Shown: one piece after another, positions 24,942 through 42,484 of the stretch | Position numbering within the stretch: the stretch's first letter is position 1 | Layout of the letters: each line of letters begins with the position of its first letter | Origin: an uncultured Bacteroidota bacterium | GTDB taxonomy: Bacteria > Bacteroidota > Bacteroidia > Flavobacteriales > Flavobacteriaceae | Assembly: GCA_902515565.1 (NCBI GenBank) | Contig: CABXVR010000010.1 | Span: 1-43,404, forward strand | Direction: 5' to 3' | DNA length: 43,404 nucleotides | Translations under genes and position numbers: made by a program | Notes under the pieces: model-generated | Databases searched by the model: none | The model's input: the letters and a program-made list of their open reading frames with translations, nothing else | Told to the model about the DNA's origin: nothing

Positions 24942-25823
24942 ATGAAAAAAATATTTATTTACTCAATCTTAATTAGTTTGTTTAATGCTAGCTGCGACAA
25001 TAGTGATAATGAAACATTTTGTTCTCAAAACGAAAACGCAATCACTTTATCCCACGACAATATTACAAGAGAATACATTTTGTATGTACCGCAATCTTAC
25101 AGCAATCAATCCGTACCATTATTATTTAATTTTCATGGTTTTGGGGATACCGCTGAACAGTACATAAACTATGCGGATATGCGTTCATTAGCAGAATCAG
25201 AACAATTTATTTTAGTTTATCCCCAAGGTAGCTGCTTAGATGGGTCTACTCATTGGAACCCATGTCTTGTTGAAGGAGATAATAAAAGTACAGCGGATGA
25301 TTTAGGGTTTGTAGAAGCTATGATTGATGATATTTCATCAAATTATAATATTGATTCTGAGAGAGTTTACGCTAGTGGATACTCAAATGGTGCAATGATG
25401 GCATATGGACTCGCAAATTATAAAAATAATTTAATAACAGCCATTGCTTCAGTCTCTGGAGCAATGCTTGATTGTGCTGGGACTCTAAGTCGGCCAGTGC
25501 CTGTTATTCATCTTCACGGAACATCAGATGGAGTGATTCCTTTTAATGGAAATTCAGATTATAACTCCGTACAGAGCACGTTAGATTATTGGATTAATTT
25601 TAATAATACATCAGTAAATCCAATAATAAATACTTATTCAGACCAAGGATTGAATATTGAACATTATTTATATGATAATGGAGACAATAATGTATCAATT
25701 GAGCATTACAAATATATAGATGGAGGTCATGAATGGTTTAACAATTCTTTTCAGGGTCAAAACACCAGTGAGTTAGTTTGGAATTTTTTATCAAAATATA
25801 ATATTAACGGGTTAATAGATTAA
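24942..25823 (+). CDS. Secreted PHB-depolymerase-type / CE1-like esterase
   Basis: A 293-residue exported alpha/beta hydrolase with a lipoprotein-type signal (LFNASC, Cys18). The domain starts REYILYVPQSYSNQSVPLLF, has the oxyanion segment NFHGFGDTAEQY, nucleophile elbow ASGYSNGAMMAYGLAN, Asp in HLHGTSDGVIPFNG and the catalytic His in YIDGGHEWFN. These are the features of the LpqC/PHB depolymerase family, which includes feruloyl and acetylxylan esterases acting on plant or algal polysaccharide esters. Surface or periplasmic location is inferred. It is followed 28 bases later by a MORN-repeat gene. Confidence 0.87.
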   Translation: MKKIFIYSILISLFNASCDNSDNETFCSQNENAITLSHDNITREYILYVPQSYSNQSVPLLFNFHGFGDTAEQYINYADMRSLAESEQFILVYPQGSCLDGSTHWNPCLVEGDNKSTADDLGFVEAMIDDISSNYNIDSERVYASGYSNGAMMAYGLANYKNNLITAIASVSGAMLDCAGTLSRPVPVIHLHGTSDGVIPFNGNSDYNSVQSTLDYWINFNNTSVNPIINTYSDQGLNIEHYLYDNGDNNVSIEHYKYIDGGHEWFNNSFQGQNTSELVWNFLSKYNINGLID

Positions 25824-32411: not shown

Positions 32412-34202
32412 TTAAAACGCTTCATTTTTATTACTTAGCTTAGGTGAGAAATTACCATTTACCGAGGAATACAATGTGTAAGACATTGTGCTGTTATTTA
32501 GAAATATAACATCTGATTTATCTACGGACTCATTATTAACAAAACCACCAGTAATTTTTCCACAACTAGCATTTTTCATGAATTTATTTGGGTTCCAACC
32601 GCTACCGTAATAGAAAAATGTTTGAAAACTTCCATTACCTAACTTAAACTTATGATATCCCCCAGCTTTAATATATGCATGAGAATAAACAACATTATTT
32701 TTTTTAATTATAACGATAACATCTGAGGTACTTGAGGCTCTAATATCTATGAAAGAACACTCTTTATAGCCAGATGGAGGACTGCAGTATGGATTAATTC
32801 CATAACAATAGCGATATGGTGTGCTTCCGTTTGTTAAAGAGTTCGTTTCATAAAAATCGTTAAAAACATCATTACTTATTTTTTCCAACCTTTCCTTGTT
32901 AAATTTTTTCTTTACAAAAGAATAATTTATTACTCCCAAAGTTTCACCACCAGAAAAAGTAAAATCAACTTTATTTTGAGTAAGTACAGGCTTGTTTTTT
33001 AACTTGGAATCTAGATTTACAGTTAAGGAACTATTCATATTGCGACTTAGTGAATTGAATTTAGAATTATATTCTTTTTGAACATCTTTATTGCTGTTAT
33101 CAATTACTCTTTTATTTTTAAAATAATCTTTAATAAAACCATCAAAGTCTTTAATCGAAAAGTCATCTAAATCAGATGCTGTAATATAATTTGAAATACA
33201 TTTTTTACACTCAATATCAATATTATTTATTGAGTTTAAAAAAGGAAAACCTGAATTTTTTGAAGAACTTTGTTTCACAATATTTATCAAATTATTCATT
33301 GTCTTAGATCCTAATCCAAATCTTTTTCTTGTTTTACTGAACCAAGATAAATATTCCTTATTGTATTTATTTTTGTAACGATTAATTTCGTGATAATAAG
33401 CACATTTAAAATATTCTTTATCTAATCCGTTAAAACTTATTTGTTTTGAAAAAAATAAAAGCTTAATTAAAGTGTCTTTACTTACAATAGCATCAGCAAA
33501 ATCAAGATTTCCTTGCTCTTTATTTCCTGAATCTTTAAAGTATGACTTAAGTCTTGGGTAATCTTTTTTGAGCTTTTTAGTCCAATAATCCTTTTCCACA
33601 TCCATCATAGCCACTTCATTGGCTTCAATTTTAGGTATATTTAATTCAAATTCATTTACTTTATTTTGAAATAACAAATAAGTAATCCCAACAGAACCTA
33701 TTAATAATAGTATAATTACATATCTCTTTTTTAAAAAACTACTTTTAGGCTTAGGGGTATTGTTTTTATTCTTGTTTGGTTTTTTGGGTTTATCATCATC
33801 AATACTATTTCTTAATTGAAACTCTCCAATAGATTTAATTTTTTCATTTTTAAAAATCATATTAATGGCTTGATTAAACCTAGAGTCGACTTTATTATCT
33901 TCTAAAAAAGTTAAGATTTTAAATTTATCTTGAGTATTTGAAGATCTAAATCTTTTCATTATAGTTACTATAGTATCTTCTTCGTTAAACAGTTCATTTA
34001 ACAGATCACTTTTTTCTTCTTTTGGTTGATTCCCAGTAAGTTCTTTATATGCTTCTTGAACTAACGCATACTCCTCTACAAAAAACTCTAAATTATCATT
34101 GTTAGCTGGGTCAAGTTCTTTTGAAAGACGTATGTAGGCCGCTTCAATTTCTTCTTTTGAAGCTCCTTTTTCTAAACCTAAAATTTTATAATATTTAATC
34201 AT
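32412..34202 (-). CDS. Membrane J-like protein (no HPD) with large periplasmic C-terminal region
   Basis: A 596-residue protein. Residues 1-60 form a J-like domain (YYKILGLEKGASKEEIEAAY, then LSKELDPANNDNLEFFVEEY); the invariant HPD of true J-proteins is replaced by DPA (residues 31-33), so canonical stimulation of Hsp70 is not expected. A linker rich in Lys/Pro/Asn precedes one transmembrane helix (YVIILLLIGSVGITYLLF, 161-178). The remaining 415 residues are then periplasmic: a helical region with CKKC-type cysteines (IECKKCISNY) and a C-terminal beta domain with PYRYCYGINPYCSPPSGY, TFFYYGSGWNPNKFM and VNGNFSPKLSNKNEAF, a pattern I recall in other secreted-type Bacteroidota proteins. Gap to the upstream gene is 117 bases, where a secondary promoter could lie. 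Confidence 0.78.
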   Translation of the reverse strand: MIKYYKILGLEKGASKEEIEAAYIRLSKELDPANNDNLEFFVEEYALVQEAYKELTGNQPKEEKSDLLNELFNEEDTIVTIMKRFRSSNTQDKFKILTFLEDNKVDSRFNQAINMIFKNEKIKSIGEFQLRNSIDDDKPKKPNKNKNNTPKPKSSFLKKRYVIILLLIGSVGITYLLFQNKVNEFELNIPKIEANEVAMMDVEKDYWTKKLKKDYPRLKSYFKDSGNKEQGNLDFADAIVSKDTLIKLLFFSKQISFNGLDKEYFKCAYYHEINRYKNKYNKEYLSWFSKTRKRFGLGSKTMNNLINIVKQSSSKNSGFPFLNSINNIDIECKKCISNYITASDLDDFSIKDFDGFIKDYFKNKRVIDNSNKDVQKEYNSKFNSLSRNMNSSLTVNLDSKLKNKPVLTQNKVDFTFSGGETLGVINYSFVKKKFNKERLEKISNDVFNDFYETNSLTNGSTPYRYCYGINPYCSPPSGYKECSFIDIRASSTSDVIVIIKKNNVVYSHAYIKAGGYHKFKLGNGSFQTFFYYGSGWNPNKFMKNASCGKITGGFVNNESVDKSDVIFLNNSTMSYTLYSSVNGNFSPKLSNKNEAF

Positions 34203-34319: not shown

Positions 34320-34892
34320 TTATTGCGGTGCATATGTTGGAAGTAAAAAATATCTTCCATCTTGTTTATAGAAAACTGATGACATTCCATTTATTTGTTC
34401 AATATTAATATCTACAGTTCCATCAACCTCAGTTGTAATATATCCTCCATCAACCTCTACACTCCCATCAACATCAACTGTATTTACAACTCTCACTTCC
34501 TGTGTATAATCATCCGTTGCAATTAATCCCATATTTTGTAAAAAAATTCCCCAAATACCTGTTGCAATGAAAAATAATAATATTCCAAATGCAAAATCTT
34601 TTGAAAAGAAACTTTTCTTTTTTTGATTTGAATTAGGTTCCTCATTACTTGTTTCATTTGGATGCAAATCCTTCTTTTTACTTGATTTATCGAGCACTTT
34701 TTTTGTACTTAAAATCGAACTATTCATCAGTTTTTCATAAGCTTCTTTAAGTTTCTTTGTTTCTTCGATAAAAAAATCTTGATTATCATTCTTTTTTGGA
34801 TCTAGTTCCTTTGATAATTTATTAAAAGCTTTTTTAACTTCTTGTTTTGTAGCCCCTTCTTTAAGGCCTAGTATTTCATAATATTTTTTCAT
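34320..34892 (-). CDS. Small membrane J-like protein (no HPD)
   Basis: A 190-residue protein whose first 60 residues (YYEILGLKEGATKQEVKKAF, LSKELDPKKNDNQDFFIEE) are a close paralogue of the J-like domain of the next gene. HPD is replaced by DPK (31-33). A hydrophilic linker (60-95) leads to one helix (DFAFGILLFFIATGIWGIFL, 99-118); the C-terminal 70 residues would be periplasmic and contain short V-D-G beta repeats (VDVDGSVEVDGGYITTEVDG) and the ending INGMSSVFYKQDGRYFLLP. With HPD missing, the domain may dock Hsp70 or another partner without triggering ATP hydrolysis. It lies 20 bases behind the TPR gene. Confidence 0.75.
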   Translation of the reverse strand: MKKYYEILGLKEGATKQEVKKAFNKLSKELDPKKNDNQDFFIEETKKLKEAYEKLMNSSILSTKKVLDKSSKKKDLHPNETSNEEPNSNQKKKSFFSKDFAFGILLFFIATGIWGIFLQNMGLIATDDYTQEVRVVNTVDVDGSVEVDGGYITTEVDGTVDINIEQINGMSSVFYKQDGRYFLLPTYAPQ

Positions 34893-34912: not shown

Positions 34913-36661
34913 TTAATTAGGTTTTAGTTTACTTAGTGTCTCTCCCAAACCACTTTCAAACAACGTGTCTAGAAACATTTTATGCTGAACAATATGAAAA
35001 TTTTCAGGATCATTTTCAATCGCAATATTACAATCATCTAAAGAACCTTTAAAATCTCCTAGAGATTGCCTACACTTACTTCTATTAAAATAAATATTTG
35101 GAATTGTATTATCAATATCAATAGCTTTATTTAAATCATCAAGAGCTAATTCATTTTCACCTACCTGCATGTAAGAAAACCCTCTATTCATGTAAGTAAG
35201 GGCTCTAGAATCATCGATTTTCAAAGCCATATCAAAGTCTAAAATTGCATCTTCTTCGTTTTCTAAATATGATTTAGCTAATCCTCTATTATCATAAACC
35301 TGTGCATAATTAGTATCTTTTGTTTTTTCAAATCCTTCAAGTTCAATAATTTTTGAAGTTATTTCAATAGTACTGCTGTAGTCTTGGTGTATATTAATCA
35401 TTAATGCAGAAAGAGAAATGTAACATGGTAATATGTACGGATCTAAATCAATTGCTTTTTGGAAATCTAAAATTGCACCATCAAAATCTTGAGATTTTAA
35501 TTTTTCGCCTCCACTATTGTTATATTTAATTGCTTCAGAATCGTAATCTCTACTAGCGCCACTCACATTGGTCTTTACAGACAGGCTTGTGGGACGATCA
35601 TTTAAGTCGTTTGGCATATCACCAATTAAAGATTTTCGCAGCTCTATGGCTCTTGAATTAGATTCATTTACCATATCATTAAATAATATTTCTATTTCAG
35701 ATTTATTAAGTTGTTTAAATACAGATTCATCACTCTGATTCATAGAAGCAAATAATAAAAATTCACCATCTTTAATTTTAAAATATTTATTCATTCTTAT
35801 CTGAAAATATGAGACAACATCTCTAATCTCCATTTTCTTTAGTAATACTTTTAAAACGCTATTTTCAACTTTTTTAACAGTGGCTTCATTTTTAGTTGTA
35901 TAAATTAATGCTAGGGAAAGTTTTAGTAATTTAAATTTCGAAGAAGATTTAACAATTGTATCAAATACTTTTTTTAATGCTGGTGTTTCAAAAATATCTA
36001 TAGATTTATTAAATACATTAAATACAAAGTACATTATAAAATCTTTAAAAGTTTTTGTGTTTACAAACTCTTCAAATTCCATTTGGCTATAAAAGGATTT
36101 CATTTCTGAAAATTCTAAAGAACCTCTACTATGTAATTGGTAAAATATAGATAAAAGCATTACACATTGATTTAAACTTAATTCATTTTTAAGTTCAGGT
36201 AAATTATAGTTTATTGGTGAAGAAAAAGGATAACTAAATTCAATATTTTTATTATTAGTGTTACCATTAATATTACTCCAGACTAATGGTTTTACAGGCG
36301 AAATATCTATTCTAAAAAGACTTACCCCTTTTGAAAACATAATCTCACAATTTTCTAAATTATGACATAAAATGTCACCCTTATATTTTTTAATCCAACT
36401 TGAAATAGTAGAAACATCTATTTTTATATATTCTAGACTTTCATTAAATCTTAATATTAGGTTATTGAATTGACCCAGCCCCTCCTCTACTGTATTAAAG
36501 AAAATAAATATTCTATGATCATTATTTGTTAAGTTAGATTCTAAATAATATTTGTTAACCTCAATTTTTCCATCAATTATTTTTGATAGACTTTCAGAGC
36601 TGTCTACGTATCTTTTAAAAAAACTAGAAGCAGAAGAATTAAAAGCATTTTCAAAAGACAT
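34913..36661 (-). CDS. TPR-repeat protein
   Basis: A 582-residue soluble protein. The last 200 residues (about 380-560) contain four to five tetratricopeptide repeats, for example KLKSQDFDGAILDFQKAIDL, YDNRGLAKSYLENEEDAILD, TYMNRGFSYMQVGENELALD and IYFNRSKCRQSLGDFKGSLD. The N-terminal 350 residues have no recognised domain; they start with MSFENAFNSSASSFFKRYVD and mix strands (HRIFIFFNTVEEGLGQFNNL) with helices. TPR proteins commonly bind the C-terminal ends of Hsp70/Hsp90, so a scaffolding or client-selection role in this cluster is a reasonable inference. Gaps of 6 and 20 bases tie it to its neighbours. Confidence 0.82.
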   Translation of the reverse strand: MSFENAFNSSASSFFKRYVDSSESLSKIIDGKIEVNKYYLESNLTNNDHRIFIFFNTVEEGLGQFNNLILRFNESLEYIKIDVSTISSWIKKYKGDILCHNLENCEIMFSKGVSLFRIDISPVKPLVWSNINGNTNNKNIEFSYPFSSPINYNLPELKNELSLNQCVMLLSIFYQLHSRGSLEFSEMKSFYSQMEFEEFVNTKTFKDFIMYFVFNVFNKSIDIFETPALKKVFDTIVKSSSKFKLLKLSLALIYTTKNEATVKKVENSVLKVLLKKMEIRDVVSYFQIRMNKYFKIKDGEFLLFASMNQSDESVFKQLNKSEIEILFNDMVNESNSRAIELRKSLIGDMPNDLNDRPTSLSVKTNVSGASRDYDSEAIKYNNSGGEKLKSQDFDGAILDFQKAIDLDPYILPCYISLSALMINIHQDYSSTIEITSKIIELEGFEKTKDTNYAQVYDNRGLAKSYLENEEDAILDFDMALKIDDSRALTYMNRGFSYMQVGENELALDDLNKAIDIDNTIPNIYFNRSKCRQSLGDFKGSLDDCNIAIENDPENFHIVQHKMFLDTLFESGLGETLSKLKPN

Positions 36662-36667
36662 AAATCA

Positions 36668-37141
36668 TTATTTAGTTTCCAGTTGACTAGAAGTGTCTTC
36701 TGGTTTTTTAAGTCCAGTGAAGTTTTGCTCAAAATCTAGTAATCCTAAGTACTCAATTTTACCAAATCTTTGAAAAAGAATCAAATCAGAAATAGTTAAA
36801 CATTTCCTTAAATTTATAATAAACTCCCTTTCAGAGTCTTCTTCAATTTTATCAGCAGCAATAATTCTTAATGAGATCTCCATCAAAGTAAGTTCTTGTA
36901 CTAAATTTAATTTTGCTTTTTTAATATCACTAAAAATTGATTTCTGAAATTTTATAGCATCTAAACTACATTTATCTAATGACTTTTCTAGGGTTTCAGA
37001 TAAATCTTGCGATGAAAAGTATGGAGAATTTTTTTCAATGTTTTTAAGTGCATCAATTTCACGCGCATCTACATCTCCGTCACATGCGATCGCACAAACT
37101 GCAGTGTTTAATAAAATATTTTTGTAGTTTATTGGTTCCAT
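36668..37141 (-). CDS. TerB-like protein
   Basis: A 157-residue helical protein. The N-terminal half carries the TerB signature helix-loop AVCAIACDGDVDAREIDALK (14-33) with the acidic D-x-D-x-D-x-x-E metal-binding pattern, repeated in degenerate form as IIAADKIEEDSEREFIINLR (about 93-112). TerB domains bind divalent cations, are associated with membranes, and occur in tellurite-resistance and phage-related operons as well as in many conflict-type gene clusters. Here no other ter genes (TerC, TerD) are visible, so tellurite resistance should not be inferred. It is flanked by the AAA+ gene (11 bases) and the TPR gene (6 bases). Confidence 0.72.
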   Translation of the reverse strand: MEPINYKNILLNTAVCAIACDGDVDAREIDALKNIEKNSPYFSSQDLSETLEKSLDKCSLDAIKFQKSIFSDIKKAKLNLVQELTLMEISLRIIAADKIEEDSEREFIINLRKCLTISDLILFQRFGKIEYLGLLDFEQNFTGLKKPEDTSSQLETK

Positions 37142-37152
37142 AATATTATTTT

Positions 37153-38898
37153 TTAATTTCTATTTTTCTTAAAACCTATACTTGGTTTTTCTGTTTTAGT
37201 ATTATTATCCTCATTCACAAAATCTTTATGAGCCTGGTTATAAGAATCAATTATAGTCTTTGATACTGATGGTTTAAATGTTTTTATTATGTCTTCTATA
37301 ATCTTATTTGAAATTCTTTTATCTGCAATAGCTGCAGCGTGAGCTGCTTTATTTACTATGAAATCAATATCACTTGAGACTAAATTTTCAGTTAAATTAG
37401 AGAGTTTGTTGTAGTCTAAATCAATTTCAGAGTATCGTTTATTTAAAAATATTTCAAACATACTTTTTCTAGCTTCAAAATCAGGAGGTCCAACATATAA
37501 CTGTATTTCTAAACGGCCTGTTCTAAGGATAGCGTCGTCAATTAAATCGGGTTTATTAGTAGTTGCTATGACAAAAATTCCTCTCTCCGAACATTTATTT
37601 ATTTGAGCTAGAAATTCATTTACTCTAGAAGAAATTGATTGATGACTGCCTTCAGTTCTTTTAGGCATAACTGCGTCTACCTCATCAAAACATATTACAC
37701 TTGGAGAGTTTTGTTCAGCTTGTTTAAAGAGGTTTCCAATTTTTTCCTCACCTCCACTGACATAAATAGAACTTAAATCAGATGGTTTGATTAAAAAAAA
37801 GTTGTATCCAGCCTCCTCACAAAATTTTTCAGAAATGAATGTTTTTCCACAACCTGGAGGGCCATATAAAAGCATGCCATTTGGTACAGTAACACCATAT
37901 TTTTTAAAATGTTCAGGTTTATTTAAAACATCCAGAACTTTAGTTTTGAGTAATTCTTTTAGAGAATCCATTCCTCCAATATCATCGAATCCGTTCCCTA
38001 ATTTTTTATATTTTTTTACAGGATTAGTACTTTGTTTCTCCAACAAGGTTTCTCTATTCATGTACTTTAACATACTGTCTAATGAATCAAATCTGTTATC
38101 CGAATTTGAATCTAAAGATTTTGTAATAATATTTTTTAAATGATCGTCTTGATTATTTAGAAAATTTAATGGAGTATTCCTTTTATCTAAAAAAACATCC
38201 ACCTCCTCAGAATTATTCAGATTAGTATGTTTTTCAACAAACCATGGAGGGATTCCTTCTATTAAATTAAATAATAGTGCACCTATATTAAACTGGTCAG
38301 ATTTAGGAGTAAAAACGTTATTAAAGGATTCAGTAGAAATCAAGAAAGGAGATACTCCGTCAATATGATTAAACTTAAAAGAACTTTCGAAATTTCTTAA
38401 ATTAATTAAATTTCTAAGCATAATTTCCTCTGATCCAGAAGATAAATCAAACATTATATTATCTAAAGAGAGTCCATTTAAAAGAATTGGAGGCTTAGAT
38501 TTGTGTAACGAATCACAAATATTAGTTACTTTTTCAATAATACTTACTGCTTCAATATCACTCAATGGTCCAACCCTTTTTATTCTATCTAAAGCGCTTT
38601 CCCCACTAATAAACTTTGTAATGATATATCTAAACTTTTCAAGGTCATAATTAAATTCCCCATGATCAATTAGAACTGGAAGACCAGAAATACCTAAATT
38701 TAAAAATGATATTTCTTTGAGATTTCCATCCATATCCAAATCATCTCTGGATATTTTTGAGGCATTATAAATACTTACATTTACAAGCTTAGAGTCTTTT
38801 AAGTTTTTAGCGCTATAAGTTTCACAATAAGTAAAAGAATCTATAAAATGTTTTATGTCATATTTGTCGTTAATTATATATCCCTTTTTAAAACTCAT
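37153..38898 (-). CDS. Pseudokinase fused to a Cdc48/FtsH-type AAA+ ATPase
   Basis: A 581-residue fusion. Residues about 5-280 follow a Ser/Thr protein kinase fold: N-lobe [20 protein letters not shown], hinge [15 protein letters not shown]-lobe [37 protein letters not shown] (T-loop and helix F). All catalytic motifs are lost: the VAIK lysine is Tyr44, HRD is LNG (140-142), DFG is NLR (166-168). Residues about 300-560 are an AAA+ module with [19 protein letters not shown], Walker A GPPGCGKT (346-353), pore-loop-like [16 protein letters not shown], Walker [10 protein letters not shown] (401-409), sensor-1 Asn in [11 protein letters not shown] and arginine finger region LRTGRLE. An active hexameric ATPase regulated by a dead kinase sensor is implied. 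No membrane segment is present. Confidence 0.88.
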
Positions 38899-38906
38899 AA
38901 CTTAAA

Positions 38907-41432
38907 TTAATTTCCTAAAATATCATCTCTACTCGATCCTTTTGGGTTTGGCAAAAGTTGCCATAGTTCCCTACAATACGATAAAATTCTTTCTTTAGTT
39001 GGATTTGAAGCTGCTTCTGTTAAACCTTTATCCAAAATTGTTCTTGCTTTTGATTTATCACTCCAAGGTTGAGAATCAAAATCATCATTAAAATTTTGCA
39101 GTAGACTAATGTAGAGTGCTACACCATGCTCACTTTCGAATAAACTAAACATTAAGCTTGTTAATTCAGTTGTTAATTCTTCTGCCATTTTACTGTCTTT
39201 GTTGTTGATGACAGTCAACATTTGCCCCTTTATTCTAGATAATTCTCTTTCAATATTGTCATTTTTACTTTCATTATTTTTTTCTTCTAGCTTGTAATAA
39301 GCATCTTTCAAAGCTTTTTCTTTATTTGGCCATGAAGCATCTTGTTCTAATTTATCTAGTTTATTAAAAGATTTTCTTAAATCATCTCTCGTTTTCATTC
39401 TAGTATCATAATCATTTTTTCTAGACTCATAATTTTTTTTAGCTTCTTCAACTTCAGATTTAATTTTATTTATTTCTAATGAATCTAAACTTTCATTATT
39501 CTCCTCGAGTTGATTAATTTCTTGTTCAATTTCAATTATTTTGTCATCAAACCAAGAGTCATCTTCATCTTTTTGTTTTTGAATATCAAAGTCAACATCA
39601 ATTGTATCGTTTAAATATGGAATATCAACAGAAATTTTCATAACTCCATCTCTAATAATTTCTAAAAATAAATTAACCTCAGAATGCTTTGGCAATAATT
39701 TAGATATGTCATTACCTAAAATCTTTACAGTGTGTACATAAATTTGATTAATAGCTCTTGTCCCCTCTGCATCATTTCCTCCTTGATATATAGATATATT
39801 AATTTCGTCATCTGTTCCAGGTCTAAGATCTTTAACTGTTTTAAGTCCAGTTTTTTCTCCGTTTGCAGGCATAGTAACTCCTTTTTCTAATCCTTTAAAA
39901 TAGAAGAAATTAGCCTTACCATTATCTCCTACAGCCTCAACACCATAGGAATATGCTAAAGTTGCATTACCAGCTTTAACTCCTTGAATAATTGTAATTT
40001 CGGATGGTTCACAGTCTAACCTATCCCCTGCTTCATTTGTTACTATGATTTCAAAAGTATTAGGTTTACCTTCAACTAAATTAAGATCAACAATTTCACC
40101 AGTAGCATCAAATTCACTTTTATCACTCTCCCATGCTCCATCTGATCTTTTAACAGATACATTTAATTTCACTGGAACATCTCCTTCAGTCTTCTCTTCG
40201 TTTAACTTAACTACTAGCATTTCCTCAACTTCAACACTTTGAGATTCATAGGAAAGTTCTAATTGAATTTTAGTTTTATCTCTAGTTTGGTCAACAATTT
40301 CTTCTGAAATTTCAAATTGAGTTGCATATATGGCAGCTCCTCTCGCCACTACTGTCATTGGATCAACAGATGTGTTTGGTTTTGCAATTTGTTTTTCAAC
40401 TAAAGATCTTAATACTGGTGAAAAAGTAGGGCCGCCGACTAAAATTAGTGAAGTCAAAGATTTTCCATCGATGTTATTTCGTTTCAAAACTTCTAAGGAT
40501 ATATTGATTGCCTTTTGAAATATAGGTGAAACAACTTTTTCTAGTTCAGATTGATCAATAGTATAATCAATTTCAATTTCCACTCCTTCATCATCGTTAG
40601 GGTAAACTCCAATATCAGAAATTATATCGCAAGTTTTATTGAATGATAATTCAATTTTTATTTTTTCAGCTTCAATTTTTAATGCATCTTTTAATAAGAT
40701 ATTTTTTTCATCGTCATCCAAATAAGATTGAATTGAATAATTATCTTTTAAATAAGGAATAAGCAACTCGTCAACAATGGCATTATCCAGTGTTTTACCA
40801 CCTAGCCAATTGTCTCCATCAGTATCCTTAACTTGCATAATACCATCTTCCATTTTGACCAGACATACATCAAATGTACCTCCTCCAAAATCAAAAATTA
40901 ATAGATCTCCATCTTTTGTCTTTTCATCTAACCCATAAGCCATAGCTGCAGCAATAGGTTCTTGAAGAAGTTCAGCTTGAGAAATACCAGCTAATTCAGC
41001 TGCTTTTAGTGTTGCAGATTTTTGATTATCATTAAACATTGCAGGAATGGTTATAACAGCAGATTTTACAATCTCGTCTTGTAAATAAGATTTCATTTTT
41101 TTTAAAACCTCTGATGATAATTCTTCTGAACTAAAATTTTCATCACAAATTGATGAATTGTATTTCTTATCTGAACCCATGGTTCTTTTGAATTCAACCC
41201 AGAAATTAGAGTCTGAAGATTTACCAGATTTTAAAGCCTTCAGCTTATCTGCCTTTAAAGTATTAAATGCTCTAACACCAGACATAACAGATCCTTTTTT
41301 TCTATAACCTACACAAGATGGTGTAGTATCACTTTGACTATCCGATTTGATGATAATGCTTTCACCCTTATCAATTTTGGTAATTGCAGAGTTCGTCGTT
41401 CCTAAATCTATTCCATATTTAATTCTTCCCAT
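38907..41432 (-). CDS. Divergent Hsp70 chaperone with extended C-terminus
   Basis: An 841-residue Hsp70, about 200 longer than DnaK. The nucleotide-binding domain (1-375) is complete: phosphate-1 GIDLGTTNSAI (7-17), catalytic-type lysine in EFKRTMGS (K82), connect motif QEPIAAAMAYG, phosphate-2 IFDFGGGTFDV (179-189) and adenosine motif LILVGGPTFSPVLRSL (329-344). The canonical hydrophobic linker (DLLLLDV-like) is absent; instead there is an Ig-like beta region (about 388-485), then a beta domain (GLEKGVTMPANGEKTGLKTV onward to about 620) and a long coiled coil (about 625-740) with a helical end. No DnaK/Hsp70 EEVD-type C-terminus. Flanked by the GrpE-like gene and the AAA+ gene, it is the likely core of the cluster. 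Not the housekeeping dnaK. Confidence 0.93.
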   Translation of the reverse strand: MGRIKYGIDLGTTNSAITKIDKGESIIIKSDSQSDTTPSCVGYRKKGSVMSGVRAFNTLKADKLKALKSGKSSDSNFWVEFKRTMGSDKKYNSSICDENFSSEELSSEVLKKMKSYLQDEIVKSAVITIPAMFNDNQKSATLKAAELAGISQAELLQEPIAAAMAYGLDEKTKDGDLLIFDFGGGTFDVCLVKMEDGIMQVKDTDGDNWLGGKTLDNAIVDELLIPYLKDNYSIQSYLDDDEKNILLKDALKIEAEKIKIELSFNKTCDIISDIGVYPNDDEGVEIEIDYTIDQSELEKVVSPIFQKAINISLEVLKRNNIDGKSLTSLILVGGPTFSPVLRSLVEKQIAKPNTSVDPMTVVARGAAIYATQFEISEEIVDQTRDKTKIQLELSYESQSVEVEEMLVVKLNEEKTEGDVPVKLNVSVKRSDGAWESDKSEFDATGEIVDLNLVEGKPNTFEIIVTNEAGDRLDCEPSEITIIQGVKAGNATLAYSYGVEAVGDNGKANFFYFKGLEKGVTMPANGEKTGLKTVKDLRPGTDDEINISIYQGGNDAEGTRAINQIYVHTVKILGNDISKLLPKHSEVNLFLEIIRDGVMKISVDIPYLNDTIDVDFDIQKQKDEDDSWFDDKIIEIEQEINQLEENNESLDSLEINKIKSEVEEAKKNYESRKNDYDTRMKTRDDLRKSFNKLDKLEQDASWPNKEKALKDAYYKLEEKNNESKNDNIERELSRIKGQMLTVINNKDSKMAEELTTELTSLMFSLFESEHGVALYISLLQNFNDDFDSQPWSDKSKARTILDKGLTEAASNPTKERILSYCRELWQLLPNPKGSSRDDILGN

Positions 41433-41443
41433 ATTGTTTTATT

Positions 41444-42484
41444 TTAATCATTTTGACTCACCTCAACTTGTGCGCCTTGAATCATTTTTCCTTTATAATT
41501 AATTTGAGGTTTTATAATTCTAGTTATAATTTGACTTCCTTTTTCGATATCCTCATCAAAAACAAAATTTGCTTCTAAGTTCATCCCTGAGGAATAGGGT
41601 TTATTTAATAATTCTACAATTTCGTATTCATTAATACTCAATGATTGAATTAACTTTCTAACTGAAGCTGATAGCTGTTTGTAGCCTCTAATTGATTCAT
41701 CCATTCTAGATAAATTAGTAGACATTCTTACTATTTCATCTGCCACTCTTTTAGCAAATGAGTGATCAGTGTTATTGGATTTAGAAGATAATTCACTAGA
41801 GCTTTTGTCAGAGAGCCAATCCGCTAACTTTTGGCTATCTTCGACTTGTCTTTCAAATACTTCTTTTTGTTTTAATGAAATCAACTTTGTTTTACTGTTC
41901 CATTTATTGTTCAATAAAATATAAATAATCAAGATCAATAACAGAGAGAATATTAAAGATATTACTCCCTTTTGTGCTTTATCTTGAAGATCATTATTGA
42001 CGGTAGATAAATTGTCCTTTGTAAAAACTAAATCTTTTGAATTGTTTGATATTTTCGTATTAGATTCAGTTAAATCATAATTCAATATTTTAGTTTTATC
42101 ATCTAACAAATCTGTTTTTTCTGACACTACAGAAATTTCCTTTTTTAGATTTGAATTATAACTTTCTATCAGCATAGTTAAGCGTTCTCTCAAGTTATTA
42201 TTAACTTCTTTTAAAGAGTCAATTGTAATCGATGAATTATCAATTCTTATATTTAATTTATTTATTGAGTTGTAATAATTATTTAAATTAGAATCTGATA
42301 ATTTAACTAATTTGTTAATTTCATAGTTAAGTAATTCATTGTTAGAATTAATTTTTTTAAATAATTTTAATTCAACTAAATTGATTAAAGAATCAACATC
42401 TGACTGATTTAATGGAGCATTTTTTTGAGAAAAAGAGGAAAAACTGAGTGTAAAAAAGATTAGTAATAATATTTTATTTTTCAT
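41444..42484 (-). CDS. Transmembrane coiled-coil protein with GrpE-like cytoplasmic domain
   Basis: A 346-residue protein with a signal peptide (FFTLSFSSFSQ, cleavage near 20), a predicted periplasmic coiled coil (about 25-170, heptads such as NELLNYEINKLVKLSDSNLN), one transmembrane helix (ISLIFSLLLILIIYILL, about 175-191) and a cytoplasmic part. The end (about 285-343: EYEIVELLNKPYSSGMNLEA, then IEKGSQIITRIIKPQINYKG, KMIQGAQVEVSQ) lines up with the C-terminal beta-wing of GrpE, where the conserved pattern is G-x-x-F-x-P ... G-Y-x-x-x-G-R-x-I-R-P-A-x-V-x-V. It would therefore act as a membrane-bound nucleotide-exchange factor for the Hsp70 encoded 11 bases downstream. The GrpE relation is my reading and should be tested. 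Confidence 0.75.
   Translation of the reverse strand: MKNKILLLIFFTLSFSSFSQKNAPLNQSDVDSLINLVELKLFKKINSNNELLNYEINKLVKLSDSNLNNYYNSINKLNIRIDNSSITIDSLKEVNNNLRERLTMLIESYNSNLKKEISVVSEKTDLLDDKTKILNYDLTESNTKISNNSKDLVFTKDNLSTVNNDLQDKAQKGVISLIFSLLLILIIYILLNNKWNSKTKLISLKQKEVFERQVEDSQKLADWLSDKSSSELSSKSNNTDHSFAKRVADEIVRMSTNLSRMDESIRGYKQLSASVRKLIQSLSINEYEIVELLNKPYSSGMNLEANFVFDEDIEKGSQIITRIIKPQINYKGKMIQGAQVEVSQND

Follow-up and report, generated by a model that had tools for sequence, protein, structure and literature searches.

GrpE, described in a 2015 review as the sole type of exchange factor known in bacteria and as present once per eubacterial genome, acts as a wedge in the cleft of Hsp70 and rotates subdomain IIB; its stalk is part of the dimer, and heat unfolding of this stalk is reported to limit activity (PMC4753570). 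Myxococcus has already been reported with two GrpE proteins, the second of which, GrpS (Mxan_6672) of Myxococcus xanthus, contains a GrpE domain, is 34% similar to E. coli GrpE, and is described with no mention of a membrane anchor (PMC10313047, PMC11019930). Genes for Hsp70, GrpE and J-domain proteins also occur together in the GAP1-N2 GTPase-centred conflict systems, which have a membrane theme and variable genes, are built around GTPases and FNIII domains, and display the HSP70/GrpE theme mainly in actinobacteria and firmicutes (PMC7159879).

The protein described here is encoded in a 43,404-nucleotide stretch of DNA from an uncultured Bacteroidota bacterium (hereafter "the window", meaning the whole stretch analyzed). 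Like GrpE (PF01025) and mitochondrial GrpEL1, it has a predicted stalk helix, two short helices, a beta wing and an Hsp70 partner, and the patches of that Hsp70 that covary with it lie at or beside published GrpE contacts. Unlike them, it adds a signal-peptide-like start, a predicted periplasmic region and a membrane helix, its partner is not DnaK, and it coexists with the GrpE of its own genome. It resembles GrpS in being a GrpE additional to the standard one where several Hsp70 proteins are encoded, and differs in its anchor. With the GAP1-N2 systems it shares the Hsp70, GrpE-like and J-domain-like genes, the membrane theme and the variable genes, but the Pfam and NCBIfam rows for the window's 8 operon proteins include no GTPase/GAP1 or FNIII domain. 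We found no membrane-anchored bacterial GrpE in the open-licence papers searched, in agreement with an earlier note on this DNA that knew of no standard bacterial protein with such a layout, and the main text of a 2025 review of GrpE-like factors contains none of the terms "transmembrane," "membrane-anchored" and "membrane-bound" (PMC12987570).

Domain layout and membrane topology

The gene occupies positions 41444..42484 of the minus strand, where the earlier note had placed it, and encodes a 346-residue protein from an ATG start codon; 110 relatives were confirmed in genome contigs, and the best 80 of these were fetched. The encoded protein begins with a signal-peptide-like, hydrophobic N-terminus that also occurs in relatives (residues 1-20; 42425..42484, minus strand), followed by a predicted periplasmic, mostly helical region in which a coiled coil is possible (residues 21-171; 41972..42424, minus strand), a transmembrane helix (residues 173-191; 41912..41968, minus strand) and finally a GrpE-like domain predicted to be cytoplasmic (residues 196-346; 41447..41899, minus strand). 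The membrane helix, recognized by hydropathy (mean 3.02), is the only strong one in the protein. Four lysine or arginine residues lie within 15 residues after it, compared with two before it, and this charge excess on the C-terminal side indicates that the C-terminus should be cytoplasmic.

We scored the layout in 80 proteins, comprising the window protein and 79 of the best 80 of the 110 relatives (L050, at 125 aa, was left out as too short). A membrane helix was found in 79 of the 80, the exception being L042. Among the 79 helix-bearing proteins, 75 have an excess of lysine and arginine on the inner side (two are ties), 73 have a hydrophobic N-terminus, and in 73 the spacing between the membrane helix and the conserved domain is 48-62 residues. 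Start codons were chosen by script, and some of the six proteins without a hydrophobic start look like wrong or cut starts. These data are in line with the signal peptide, the single membrane helix and the cytoplasmic C-terminal domain proposed in the earlier note, the last of these being predicted from the distribution of positive charge.

The same note had also proposed a long periplasmic coiled coil, which our analysis did not confirm. The region is helical at residues 27-154 in our first model, a low-confidence one built from a 4-sequence alignment (pLDDT 53.5) and left out of the fold analysis, and in a crude test the heptad pattern in residues 30-165 was not above that of shuffled sequences (247 of 1000 reach it). 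The predicted periplasmic part ranges from 18 to 236 residues across the relatives; L060 and L074, near 18, have almost no periplasmic region, which weakens the case for a universal sensing role.

Fold and family of the C-terminal domain

An AlphaFold2 model of residues 196-346 (pLDDT 89.8, from 71 sequences) contains a stalk helix (197-231), two short helices (242-260 and 268-284) and a beta wing (287-344). The earlier note had likened the last 60 residues to the GrpE wing; the wing is indeed there, and the GrpE-like part is larger, as it includes the stalk and both short helices. The 12 best Foldseek matches in the PDB are all GrpE or GrpEL1 (E values from 3.7e-5 to 0.089, nine of them at 0.001 or below), the first match that is not GrpE has an E value of 0.44, and BAG domains appear at 0.8 or worse. 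The comparison with GrpE that the note had called for therefore came out in its favor on both model and matches, with additional evidence from PF01025 matches in relatives. VIA-align added little, since its scores for GrpE (Z 7.4-8.4 over 99-108 residues) are equaled by those for BAG domains (Z 7.4-9.5) and for further helical bundles. The GrpE rows extend from model residues 39-45 to 148-151, the end of the wing, and the BAG rows stop at or before 139, these extents giving the first and last aligned residues only; the absence of other folds from the VIA-align list was not counted as evidence.

When family members were scanned singly, PF01025 was the family matched by most of them (37 of 71 at E≤10). 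Thirty relatives were checked row by row, in batches of ten that gave 0 (E≤0.05), 8 (E≤1) and 7 (E≤0.05) matches; 14 of these 15 matches run nearly end to end along the profile, and the other 15 relatives gave nothing for PF01025 at the limits used. The only one of the 30 to pass the curated cut-off was L028 (26.4 bits versus 25.8, profile positions 12-164 of 165). For the window protein, Pfam and NCBIfam gave no significant match, and PF01025 was not matched at a limit of E≤10 with HMMER filters on, so its membership in the GrpE superfamily rests on its relatives and its predicted fold. Comparison of profiles by hhalign with a narrow set of 30 Flavobacteriaceae GrpE sequences (31 were sought; L099 was left out as the wrong ORF) was not significant (E 0.44), and no GrpE was listed when PDB sequences were searched with a profile. 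No BAG family occurs in the Pfam rows shown. Five residues, I320, Q327, I335, Q336 and A338, all in the beta wing, are invariant in 78 of 78 aligned proteins; few parts of the family are as well conserved as the wing, the helix at 240-250 being about its equal. From the predicted fold and the matches of relatives, we conclude that residues 196-346 are homologous to GrpE and have diverged beyond easy detection.

Two very small proteins are wing-only. One, of 95 aa (L191:1982-2266, plus strand), matches the wing part of the GrpE-like family profile (E 1.5e-4), and the other, of 101 aa (L188:8325-8627, minus strand), is 43% identical to it. Both resemble the GrpE-like gene in lying just upstream of an Hsp70-like gene, but at 95-101 aa they are too short for a stalk, a periplasmic region or a membrane helix. 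We found no description of them in the literature; they are possibly the simplest exchange factor of the GrpE-like kind.

The adjoining Hsp70 and the gene neighborhood

The next gene downstream encodes a homologue of the window's Hsp70 in 75 of the 80 loci (best 80 of 110), with a gap of -20 to +26 bases. In the remaining five, the Hsp70 gene follows a 60-codon ORF (L059), the contig ends (L010), or there is none (L071, L079 and L082), the last three being cases of a GrpE-like membrane protein without an adjoining Hsp70. In the window, the partner is an 841-residue Hsp70-like protein (38907..41432, minus strand) with an ATPase domain at about residues 1-375 (PF00012, 237 bits, residues 7-371), in which the phosphate-binding motifs are kept, and a divergent remainder. 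Residues 491-620 gave an hhalign E value of 0.0015 with a probability of 16.7 in one comparison with a substrate-binding domain, which we treat as a lead only. Between the ATPase domain and this weakly similar region lies an extra segment of about 115 residues (approximately 376-490), for which Pfam gave no match. The partner is not DnaK, as it scores 249 bits against TIGR02350, whose cut-off is 822.55. The genome itself (1.27 Mb, 65% complete) also encodes a standard GrpE elsewhere (119 bits) as well as a standard DnaK (971 bits), and DnaK is above the model's cut-off in 60 of 61 phylum genomes. The window protein is therefore not a classical housekeeping GrpE in the sense of a soluble, cytoplasmic protein that serves DnaK, given its near-universal membrane helix (79 of 80) and its different partner.

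Other neighbors recur. Among the best 80 of 110 loci, a homologue of the kinase-AAA protein lies downstream in 69, a TerB homologue in 57 and a DUF6804 small membrane protein in 36, and the gene immediately before the GrpE-like one encodes an upstream-protein homologue in 69, all of these counts being lowered by contig ends. The window's kinase-AAA protein (37153..38898, minus strand; 581 aa) is a kinase-like domain fused to an AAA+ ATPase (PF00069 and PF00004, with Walker A and B motifs). The HxD kinase motif was not found in it, and HxD(I/V/L)xxxN is present in 30 of the 65 kinase-AAA proteins compared; against PADLOC models, the AAA part resembles IetA and the kinase part PD-T4-6. The TerB-like protein (36668..37141, minus strand) matches PF05099 with an E value of 3.3e-4, below the curated cut-off. 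The upstream protein, an ORF with homologues in the relatives, is cut by the contig end (42496..43404, minus strand). Its relatives start with a segment that is weakly J-domain-like and lacks HPD (hhalign E 0.002, probability 5.5, one comparison), a lead only, and no Pfam match backs this J-likeness.

The same run of genes contains a TPR protein (34913..36661, minus strand; PF00515) and two J-domain-like proteins (PF00226), each with one membrane helix and with LDP replacing HPD: a shorter one (34320..34892, minus strand) and a longer one with a C-terminal domain at residues 433-596 (32412..34202, minus strand; PF00226 and blastp). Some loci have an extra gene. A cluster of 16 such proteins, 15 of them encoded between Hsp70 and kinase-AAA, mostly have a lipoprotein-like start by eye, and the members of another cluster of 6 look by eye like secreted SH3 proteins. 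The C-terminal domain of the 16-protein cluster recurs as residues 433-596 of the longer J-like protein, after its membrane helix, and at the C-terminal end of the upstream-type proteins of L032, L042 and L067. The L058 cassette has two Hsp70-like genes, encoding 840 and 871 aa.

Covariation with the adjoining Hsp70

We compared pairwise identities of operon proteins in 65 sets, consisting of the window and 64 of the 80 loci (16 loci without a full-length segment were left out). The GrpE-like half follows the Hsp70 ATPase domain (r 0.86) far more closely than it follows its own front part (0.35), the part from the membrane helix to residue 235 (0.44), the kinase (0.36), the AAA domain (0.36) or TerB (0.44). 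The front part instead tracks the kinase (0.81) and the upstream protein (0.82). In four of nine close pairs inspected (L029/L086, L062/L084, L069/L084 and L035/L088), the GrpE-like protein loses its near identity from about residue 245 onward, and Hsp70 identity falls mainly at about residues 21-70, at the edge of IA and in part of IB (41223..41372 in the window, minus strand), and at 222-300, mostly in IIB (40533..40769, minus strand). In L081/L087 the drop starts at 282, and the pair ranks as unswitched by the threshold given below (0.77); L026/L080, L055/L080 and L081/L083 differ across most of Hsp70, and L066/L055 is unswitched.

Pairs were called switched when their GrpE-like halves were at most 65% identical and unswitched when they were at least 75% identical, which divided 156 close pairs into 44 switched, 110 unswitched and 2 in between. 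Identity in the patches 21-70 and 222-300 was 0.38 and 0.43 in switched pairs versus 0.82 and 0.84 in unswitched pairs, with kinase identity equal in the two groups (0.81 vs 0.81). Restricting the comparison to pairs with kinase identity of at least 0.9 left 5 switched pairs (patches 0.33 and 0.49, rest of the ATPase domain 0.83) and 12 unswitched pairs (patches 0.81 and 0.84, rest 0.94). The switches come from three groups only, L084/L086, L088 and L078/L080, and in the last of these the whole Hsp70 differs. Among all unswitched pairs, too, the patches are less alike than the rest of the ATPase domain (0.82 and 0.84 vs 0.92); they evolve faster in both groups, so that any test must correct for patch rate. 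This variability is a property of the neighbor Hsp70, where the patches (0.57 and 0.56 vs 0.71 for the rest) are the variable part; in housekeeping DnaK (29 proteins, from 30 loci) the same patches and the rest are equally conserved (0.79 and 0.79 vs 0.78).

With the rest of the ATPase domain held constant, the partial correlations of the GrpE-like half with the two patches, which were picked from the same data as tested, are 0.57 and 0.48, and none of 300 permutations, which ignore kinship, reaches either value. The corresponding values are 0.06 for the Hsp70 insert, 0.00 for the substrate-binding region, -0.30 for the kinase and -0.21 for the protein's own N-terminus, and are negative for the C-tail and the AAA domain; uncorrected, the insert and the substrate-binding region reach 0.79 and 0.76, and the rest of the ATPase domain 0.89 among close pairs. 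Divided by the residue limits that we assume for IA, IB, IIA and IIB on the window Hsp70, the partial correlations are 0.44 for IA, 0.43 for IB, 0.17 for IIB (3 of 300 permutations) and -0.07 for IIA. Random sets of segments did as well as the contact set in 14 of 300 draws. A global per-column partial correlation was noisy, rising in the insert and substrate-binding segments as well, and we therefore relied on the region tests. The mapping of GrpE-like residues onto IB or IIB is weak overall: 268-275, 300-307 and 316-346 lean toward IB, and nothing is clear for IIB.

Published contacts with GrpE include Gly32, Arg44, Asn56, Thr60, Glu236 and Tyr257 of M. tuberculosis DnaK (PMC10803776), a numbering that we took as that of E. 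coli DnaK, and IB and IIB of mortalin (PMC11685456). These contacts fall in or next to the patches; positions 32, 44, 56 and 60 relate to patch 21-70, and positions 236 and 257 to patch 222-300, although 236 is just outside it by alignment. The covariation points to the ATPase domain of the neighbor Hsp70 as the likely partner surface of the GrpE-like domain, at or beside the contacts published for GrpE.

Silent sites bear on how these combinations arose. For L029/L086 their similarity is high over the first 225 residues of the GrpE-like protein, lower up to about residue 600 of Hsp70, and high thereafter, which suggests that a whole tract was exchanged, as may also be the case, less clearly, in L062/L084; L035/L088 and L081/L087 have no such contrast. 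Because of this hint of tract exchange, physical linkage also needed to be addressed as a source of the covariation (see Discussion).

Distribution and genomic context

The relatives (best 80 of 110) are mostly from Bacteroidota, with other records labeled Aliidiomarina, Melioribacteraceae and Desulfobulbus (labels of metagenome-assembled genomes as given). Matches were found in 4 of 149 genomes of the same family, the own genome counted, and a profile of the C-terminal part matched 7 of 296 phylum genomes, including the own genome and two weak, partial matches, so the gene for the GrpE-like membrane protein is rare and scattered. No relative was among the 12 pattern matches in viral contigs, and phage records contained no match to the protein. 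The plasmid search gave one record with a relative, Haliscomenobacter pHALHY02. There (L194; NC_015512.1, 1254-20144) the cassette lies between SIR2/WD40 and BREX genes (brxL/pglZ), and its GrpE-like protein is annotated as "septum formation initiator."

Defense models matched at E≤1e-15 numbered 210 for 138 flanking ORFs (sampled from 310) versus 42 for 138 control ORFs (of 191) from 20 arbitrary regions, where strong matches also occur among the matches listed; since defense models overlap, these figures count models, not genes. They offer a hint that the flanks of the cassette may be defense islands. Elsewhere in the window, positions 24942-25823 encode an esterase that resembles extracellular PHA depolymerases in their catalytic domain (161 bits versus a cut-off of 150).

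Discussion

The predicted GrpE fold, the membrane layout, the pairing of the genes and the covariation with the Hsp70 ATPase domain are together best explained if the protein is a GrpE homologue with an inner-membrane anchor that serves the adjacent Hsp70 specifically, which we regard as probably correct. The earlier reading of a GrpE-like domain that acts on the neighbor Hsp70 is thereby supported, at the level of sequence comparison and structural models. A shared fold directed at corresponding Hsp70 faces suggests a shared mode of action: the wing would wedge between IB and IIB of the neighbor Hsp70 and open its nucleotide cleft, releasing ADP, and the cytoplasmic helix that follows the membrane helix would serve as the dimer stalk.

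A rival reading is a membrane tether, in which the GrpE-derived domain would bind the neighbor Hsp70 and keep it at the membrane but would not accelerate nucleotide release. The covariation and fold data speak for binding at most, not catalysis, and LDP replaces HPD in both J-like proteins of the window, so the Hsp70 cycle may be unusual. We nevertheless consider a pure tether unlikely: the beta wing, which in GrpE is the part that opens the Hsp70 cleft, ranks with the best-conserved parts of the protein, with five residues invariant in all 78 aligned proteins, and the window Hsp70 retains its phosphate-binding motifs. That the covariation merely reflects recombination tracts that span the boundary between one gene and the following one would agree with the silent sites of L029/L086 and, less clearly, L062/L084. 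It is improbable, however, as the insert and the substrate-binding region lie inside such a tract and have partial correlations near zero (0.06 and 0.00, vs 0.57 and 0.48 for the patches), and in four of the nine pairs inspected the break coincides with the beginning of the GrpE-like domain and not with that of the gene.

Two further readings concern the identity of the domain and of its partner. A GrpE homologue in a phylum where DnaK is nearly universal (60 of 61 genomes) might serve the housekeeping DnaK and bring it to the membrane, but a dedicated Hsp70 adjoins the gene in 75 of the best 80 of 110 loci, it is this Hsp70 with which the domain covaries, and the genome has a separate standard GrpE, all of which makes service to DnaK very improbable. 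It is hardly credible that the domain is a generic helical-bundle adaptor, BAG-like for example, that resembles GrpE by chance. VIA-align does score BAG domains as high as GrpE, but its GrpE rows, unlike its BAG rows, reach the end of the wing, Foldseek places BAG at E values of 0.8 or worse, and PF01025 is matched by relatives.

If the protein is indeed an anchored exchange factor for its own Hsp70, its stalk leads to a membrane helix and a periplasmic region, and by analogy with GrpE it is plausible that a periplasmic signal controls nucleotide exchange. With less certainty, the periplasmic region, possibly together with secreted operon proteins, may report an event in the envelope that alters the geometry of the dimer and hence how fast Hsp70 cycles on its client, which might be a further cassette protein such as kinase-AAA or TerB. 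A more ambitious proposal, which we offer tentatively and consider less likely than not, is a trans-envelope Hsp70 switch in which a membrane-spanning GrpE-like factor and HPD-less J-like proteins, one ending in a domain that is secreted separately at other loci, would bracket one cytoplasmic Hsp70, and a periplasmic signal would start or stop its cycle on kinase-AAA or another client. The exchange interface would occur in distinct specificity classes that can replace one another, as though kept apart from DnaK and GrpE or under attack, and the cassette might act as a stress or anti-phage alarm.

In the natural switches L029/L086, L062/L084 and L035/L088, similar operon backgrounds carry different GrpE-like halves and different Hsp70 faces. 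Because nearly the same front part is joined to one or the other of two GrpE-like halves, which go with different Hsp70 faces, such pairs are ready-made for the study of recognition between exchange factor and Hsp70. A membrane-anchored GrpE with its own Hsp70, if true, would add a route by which Hsp70 is controlled across a membrane.
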